Source: Burkholderiales bacterium (GTDB taxonomy: Bacteria; Pseudomonadota; Gammaproteobacteria; Burkholderiales; Casimicrobiaceae). Taken from it: a stretch of DNA of 36,929 bases. The first letter of the stretch is position 1; every line of letters begins with the position of its first letter. The stretch covers positions 1 to 36,929 of the forward strand of contig JADLBN010000033.1 in assembly GCA_020847675.1 (NCBI GenBank), written 5' to 3'. The notes under the pieces are model-generated. The model did no database searches and had not been told where the DNA came from. It was given only the letters and a program-made list of their open reading frames with translations. Positions 23,772-24,423 of this stretch are shown piece by piece. The translations under genes and the position numbers were made by a program.

Positions 23772-24060
23772 TCGGCGCGGCGGCCTCCTGGCGCCGTTCG
23801 GACGGTCCGGCTCGGGGACGAACCGGGATCCGCCTCTCCGGGCGGCGGACCGAAGGGTCGGCGATCCCTGCCGGGAGCACGCGCAGGCGCGAGCCTTTCC
23901 CGCCGCACGCGGACCTGACCGGAGCGCGAAACGGCGATCCCCGCGATCCGCGTGGCAGCGGACGCTTCGGGCCCGCCGGGGTCCTCTCCTAGCAGCATGA
24001 TTCAAAACGCGGCCCAGGGCGACGGTGTGCGCACGACACCCGGTGTTTCGTGCCGTTGCC

Positions 24061-24097
24061 GGCGGTCGTCCGACGGGCCGCCCCTAGGGCGACCGCC
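24061..24097. repeat. Inverted repeat GGCGGTCG...CGACCGCC with internal GCCCCTAGGGC
   Basis: 8-bp perfect arms directly left of the three-way-junction palindrome. Confidence 0.6.
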
Positions 24098-24107
24098 TGA
24101 AATCACC

Positions 24108-24173
24108 TCGATGCAAAAGGCGCGACGCAGCCTTCTCGTCGTCCGGGAACCGCTCGGACGCCTTTTGCATCGA
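24108..24173. other. Perfect three-way-junction palindrome
   Basis: 15-bp arms TCGATGCAAAAGGCG/CGCCTTTTGCATCGA enclose exactly two hairpins, CGACG-N9-CGTCG (24123-24141) and TCCG-N9-CGGA (24142-24158), with no unpaired junction bases. Confidence 0.75.
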
Positions 24174-24177
24174 CCCG

Positions 24178-24423
24178 CTAGTGCTGCAGCCCGATCGCCG
24201 GAAACGACGCGCCCGCACGCTCACCGACCGCATGCGGCCACTGCCGCGAGTTCCGGAGGGCGCAGCCGCCGGTACGGCGGGAGACCGAAGCCGCGAGTTT
24301 CCTCGCGGCCCCGGCGAGGCTCTCGACCAGATCGACGATCGCTTCGGCGCGCGCCATCTGGCCGCGCGCGAGCGCACGCTCGTGGCTGGGCAGGTGAGAG
24401 AGTCTGGCGTCGAGGATGGACAT
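24178..24423 (-). CDS. Small hypothetical protein (81 aa), divergent from the LysR gene
   Basis: ATG preceded on the minus strand by AGGAG spacing to an RBS; starts 'MSILDARLSHLPSHERALARGQMARAEAIVDLVESLAG'. Confidence 0.5.
   Translation of the reverse strand: MSILDARLSHLPSHERALARGQMARAEAIVDLVESLAGAARKLAASVSRRTGGCALRNSRQWPHAVGERAGASFPAIGLQH

Follow-up and report, generated by a model that had tools for sequence, protein, structure and literature searches.

Several described families of small repeats come close to the sequence reported here. ERIC (IRU, RU-1) elements, which are intergenic palindromes of 127 bp in enterobacteria, reportedly share transcripts with neighbouring genes and influence the stability of the mRNA (PMC2229807). 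RUP, of Streptococcus pneumoniae, is 107 bp long and has IS630-Spn1 as its proposed mobiliser, and many bacterial repeats called MITEs have no known parent (PMC2229807). The repeat that we describe, found in a window of 36,929 nucleotides (the whole stretch of DNA that was analysed, contig JADLBN010000033.1 of a Burkholderiales bacterium), works like ERIC, RUP or REPIN; we file it as MITE/REP-like and not as a member of any of these families. Like ERIC it is 100-200 bp long, intergenic and dispersed; it differs in its host group, in its precise position at CTAG stop codons and in its three successive stem-loops, and in this comparison, made by description, no recognisable sequence relation was noted. 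With REP, BIME and REPIN sequences (PMC3116915, PMC3733652) it shares inverted hairpin arms, occurrence as dimers and as singlets, and a place near gene 3' ends, and its ends, like those of REP, supply TAG stops (PMC3733652). In contrast to these, it has a CTAG tag, arms of ~66 nt and a unit of ~193 bp, and no linked RAYT gene, flanked by the repeat, was found, which puts it outside the GTAG REP/REPIN definition. Like RUP, it is a small terminal-inverted-repeat element, and TA insertion fits its ends; unlike RUP, it has extended conserved internal hairpins, and no matching IS630 was found. Correia/NEMIS sequences of Neisseria are likewise small elements bounded by terminal inverted repeats, and the stem-loops of their RNA can undergo processing (PMC2229807), but they differ from the repeat in sequence, length classes and host. 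Set apart from ERIC, Correia and RUP by their descriptions, the family is apparently undescribed, and we conclude that the window copy is probably one member of a new family of small mobile repeats, confined to a single genus, non-autonomous and MITE/REP-like.

The feature that drew attention to the locus is a palindrome at positions 24108-24173. Read directly, TCGATGCAAAAGGCG (24108-24122) is fully complementary to CGCCTTTTGCATCGA (24159-24173), giving a perfect 15-bp stem, and the 36 nt enclosed by it divide into two hairpins, CGACG-9 nt-CGTCG (24123-24141) and TCCG-9 nt-CGGA (24142-24158), with stems of 5 and 4 bp and zero unpaired bases at the junction. This reproduces the geometry given in an earlier note on this DNA, which had also correctly placed the palindrome 4 nt beyond the stop codon (24178-24180) of a minus-strand 81-aa ORF (24178-24423; no family assigned). 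Rfam 15 gave no match above the gathering score in the window. Folding of the two strands with RNAfold bore out the proposed structure on one of them: the plus strand forms the three-way junction (-38.0 kcal/mol, z = -5.81, equalled by 0 of 200 shuffles), whereas the minus strand prefers a single long irregular hairpin.

The palindrome is the right third of a dispersed repeat of ~193 bp (23989-24181, no strand assigned), which consists of three stem-loops in a row and lies between an esterase gene and the 81-aa ORF; its boundaries were set by nhmmer and by flank divergence, with a full-length alignment of 50 copies. The window copy reads CTAGCAG...CCGCTAG and the family consensus CTAGCAG...CTGCTAG. 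The terminal inverted repeats are ~16 bp long, imperfect and end in CTAG (family pair CTAGCAGCATGATGCA / CTAGCAGGTCGATGCA). On the left, CTAGCAGCATGATTCA (23989-24004, plus strand; CTAGCAGCATGATGCA in its family form) contains a TAG, and on the right, CTAGCGGGTCGATGCA on the minus strand (24166-24181) contains the TAG at 24178-24180 that is the stop of the 81-aa ORF. Between them lie, on the plus strand, a left arm (23990-24053), seen by self-alignment and consensus fold as a weak stem-loop that mirrors the right arm in degenerate, inverted form; a central hairpin GGCGGTCGTC...GGGCGACCGCC (24061-24097), recognised by compensatory changes in the 50 copies, with a strongly conserved apical CGACGGGCCGCCCC; and the right arm itself (24108-24173), in which the conserved 15-bp outer stem surrounds a variable 36-nt interior that makes a three-way junction in the window copy. 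The repeat matches its own reverse complement from end to end and is one large imperfect palindrome of left arm, central hairpin and right arm. We gathered 99 distinct copies, most of them full length and some of them solo right arms; a few are internally deleted derivatives of 45 to 80 bp that retain both ends, and the solo ends that were fetched are remnants or deletion derivatives of repeat copies. As in MITEs, the element is short, is bounded by terminal inverted repeats and holds no transposase gene within its ~193 bp.

The search for other copies proposed in the earlier note, in the same and in related genomes, was successful. A DNA search of the window's own genome (G000) returned two further copies with identity extending over ~190 bp; these near-identical copies at two other sites, together with an expectation of 0 matches to the stem pattern in shuffles, put the palindrome beyond chance. 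A covariance model of the right arm found about 66 copies in G008 (isolate SJ348), 48 in G001 (4_1_Oct_SF_Bin16), 6 in G000, 4 in G015 (BroJett026), 2 in G003 and 1 in G009 (SJ575), counts that rest on the model and on pattern searches, after reverse-strand duplicates had been merged by hand. The same model gave one weak match in G017, resembling a different palindrome, and no copy in the remaining genomes of the genus or in 39 genomes of other genera. Among 84,980 species, represented by one genome each, the stem pattern occurs in 53 stretches, all of them in four betaproteobacterial MAGs, namely G008, G001, G015 and G009; viral contigs gave no match to the pattern, and phages and plasmids no match to the repeat at the sensitivity used. 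Copy number is therefore high in two members of the genus, and the repeat is rare or absent in the others, a distribution that allows the gain, spread and loss of such repeats to be compared within one uncultured betaproteobacterial genus. The third copy in the window's own genome (G000:C149:13266-13349) stops exactly where its contig ends, most likely because the assembly broke at the repeat. Since contigs break at copies in this way, draft assemblies probably yield counts that are too low.

Comparison of the copies revealed which parts of the structure are kept. In 72 right arms, the outer 15-bp stem is 98.7% paired, a figure biased by those copies that were fetched through the stem pattern itself, the nhmmer and BLAST copies being free of this bias. 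The inner hairpins are 52% (hairpin 1) and 76% (hairpin 2) paired in the same arms; 2 of the 72 have hairpin 1 intact, 24 have hairpin 2 intact and 2 have both, and most of the copies that were folded give one irregular hairpin. The three-way junction is therefore incidental: its inner hairpins are nearly specific to the window copy, the junction as such is without function, and we discarded it as a conserved motif. In the 50 full-length copies, three pairs of the central hairpin show 11-12 double compensatory changes each, and double-change cells over the whole structure number 39, compared with 12 in shuffles. When diverged subfamilies were added, 10 pairs vary on both sides, with 45 cells against 14 in shuffles and a covariation score of 0.257 against 0.113. 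These subfamilies (L208 and L206 in G015, L212 in G008), which are possibly older families, have compensated outer stems, such as GATGAAAAACGTG...CACGTTTTTCATC in L208, and are without the left terminal repeat. Compensation, for which the earlier note had proposed to look, thus holds for substitutions in the outer stem and fails for those in the inner hairpins. Compensatory changes preserve the outer stem and the central hairpin alike, and the fold is therefore under constraint, as the note's alternative reading of the palindrome as a 3'-end RNA structure would have it. One terminator-like match was found inside the right arm, on the plus strand; we set aside the reading of this arm as an intrinsic terminator, since the interior around the match varies between copies.

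The repeat is placed at gene ends, and the gene ends of relatives without it are unchanged. The same gene order as in the window is found in G014, where the repeat is absent; the homologue of the 81-aa ORF there, 48% identical over its full length, ends in ...GLQH-TGA, while the window has ...GLQH-TAG-repeat. On contig C1 of the window's own genome, the repeat starts at the stop codon of a gene ending in ...MVL, which we take from its translated sequence to be ybeD-like (DUF493); at least 12 relatives stop at the same place (...VL-stop) and have no repeat. In G008, a copy lies between GlyA (...FPVYS-TAG) and NrdR (GTG 4 nt on), names likewise assigned by recognising the translated sequence; in relatives that keep the glyA-nrdR order, the repeat is absent and the end of GlyA falls at FPVY or beside it, and in G009 a GCTAG stands at the glyA stop codon. 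Compared across what are separate species, these three repeat-free loci show that the repeat inserted at native stop codons and that these were preserved. The earlier note had counted homologous loci that lack the structure against it; such loci do exist, and here, alongside the copies elsewhere, they point to insertion. As in MITEs, the repeat is present in dispersed copies (99) that are missing at homologous sites in relatives.

Gene-to-repeat distances are approximate, because genes were called by a simple codon-bias script; with these calls, the stop codon of a convergent right-hand gene lies within 10 bp of the right end of the repeat in 53 of 59 copies and mostly overlaps it, so that the 3'-end position suggested by the earlier note is right as to place. 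TAG makes up 43 of these 53 near stops, against 78 of 283 (28%) in the background. When the right-hand gene is co-directional, its start codon is at most 15 bp away in 26 of 35 copies; for random intergenic points, the right-hand gene would be that near in 11-34% of cases. Among junction types, convergent ones are in excess (33 of 93 copies versus 27 of 282 in the background) and divergent ones are depleted (4 of 93 versus 52 of 282).

For a mobile repeat of MITE/REP-like type, this placement could be explained by the ends of the element. The repeat would insert at the TA of CTAG and duplicate the TA (C-TA/GCAG...CTGC/TA-G), an insertion that would re-create a TAG stop on both sides; landing on a stop codon would in that way be harmless. 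Roughly 70% of copies have a TA at either end, which may equally be part of the conserved CTAG end. With its strict placement at stop codons and a TAG supplied by its own end, this otherwise ordinary type of genomic repeat is a clear example of a small mobile sequence that settles at sites of least harm. Because it sits at mRNA 3' ends and operon junctions, its hairpins, once transcribed, would act on the RNA as well, changing the 3' ends of mRNAs or the distance between stop and start codons, effects on record for REP, ERIC and NEMIS. The mobiliser of the repeat may have been a transposase supplied in trans, which has since been lost or went unrecognised here, and which would have acted on the terminal repeats, the hairpins or both. 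Whether this was an IS630/Tc1-mariner-type enzyme, making the repeat a MITE of such a transposon with the TA duplicated inside CTAG, is a possibility that we hold with some doubt. The ends CTA/GCAG...CTGC/TAG fit, IS630 elements insert at TA and duplicate it, the title of a reference cited in the same paper (b29) names a preference for TA in CTAG (PMC2170065), and RUP, for which this origin has been proposed, is a precedent (PMC2229807). Yet DDE_3 genes number one in G008, at a locus without matching terminal repeats, and none in G000 or in G001 with its 48 copies, and a family cannot be assigned from length and terminal repeats alone. Examination of ends in G008, G001 and G000 turned up no autonomous element with matching terminal inverted repeats, and the loci of DDE_Tnp_1 (IS4/IS5-type) genes lack the ends of the repeat; partners of either type, being absent or without matching ends, were discarded. 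We accordingly call the repeat MITE-like and assign it to no named MITE family, since the autonomous parent was not found, as for many bacterial MITEs. Movement as a REPIN or BIME, in which a pair of inverted REPs flanks a spacer and a RAYT/TIRYT HUH transposase mobilises the unit as single-stranded DNA by recognising its hairpins, is rather unlikely. The dimeric inverted arms with a spacer hairpin, the solo right arms that exist as singlets and the hairpins held by compensatory changes, as a single-strand substrate needs, would suit it, and there is a published parallel in GTAG-REPs, whose ends are described as providing TAG stop codons and as being located <20 bp from the 3' ends of genes (PMC3733652). 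Y1_Tnp genes are indeed present in G000, G001, G008 and G015, but they are flanked by unrelated palindromes of the GGGGTCAGAGTC or GGTGTCAGACACC type, and no copy of the repeat adjoins them; G014 and G019 have Y1_Tnp and no repeat copies, none was found in G009, which has one copy, and both the tag (CTAG, not GTAG) and a unit far beyond 20-40 bp are foreign to REPINs. As the Y1_Tnp loci carry other palindromes, a RAYT was discarded as partner.

Less probable still is that the repeat is mainly a functional structured RNA, a 3'-UTR or operon-junction element selected at many loci, and not mainly a mobile parasite. Its outer stem and central hairpin are compensated even between diverged subfamilies, its apical CGACGGGCCGCCCC is near-invariant, and it is enriched at 3' ends and depleted from divergent promoter regions; however, a transposition substrate would equally show structural constraint, the inner parts vary freely, nothing in the window matched Rfam, few genomes of the genus carry the repeat and the orthologous junctions examined in relatives are without it. 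An integron attC site or a viral or phage terminal structure, to which a long single-strand palindrome with extra hairpins might point, is barely conceivable: no RYYYAAC/GTTRRRY core pair was seen by eye in the 193 bp, copies stand singly between ordinary genes at gene ends and not in cassette arrays, and viral contigs, phages and plasmids were without a match at the sensitivity used. The resemblance to viral terminal repeats or recombination sites drawn in the earlier note has thus fallen, its inner geometry being intact in 2 of 72 arms, and a viral terminal repeat was discarded, since the copies are internal to chromosomal contigs. As the GTAG-REP definition and attC both fail and the link to an IS630-type MITE is tentative, the repeat is not filed under a named family. 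That it is a module specialised for stop codons, which by CTAG insertion re-creating TAG would set a compact folded RNA between the stop and start codons of an operon, bring these codons close in space and so preserve or tune translational coupling despite an insertion of 193 nt, is a speculation to which we give little credence.

Some single loci deserve mention. Y1_Tnp (RAYT/TIRYT-like) genes with long flanking palindromes of their own are found at L086, L089 and L090 (in G000, G008 and G001), and one repeat copy (L117) is interrupted by a GGGTCAGACTCG palindrome. In G008, a left-end remnant TAGCAGCCTGATGCAGAACGCGATCGAA (L246:2017-2060; G008:C214:3816) appears to give the upstream gene its TAG stop and to give a glyS-like gene its ATG and first codons (MQNAIE). 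At four loci of the same genome (L158, L166, L167 and L177), right ends of the repeat lie near another dispersed sequence, GATCCCTCGCTTCGCTCGGGATGACAC, which suggests composite repeats.
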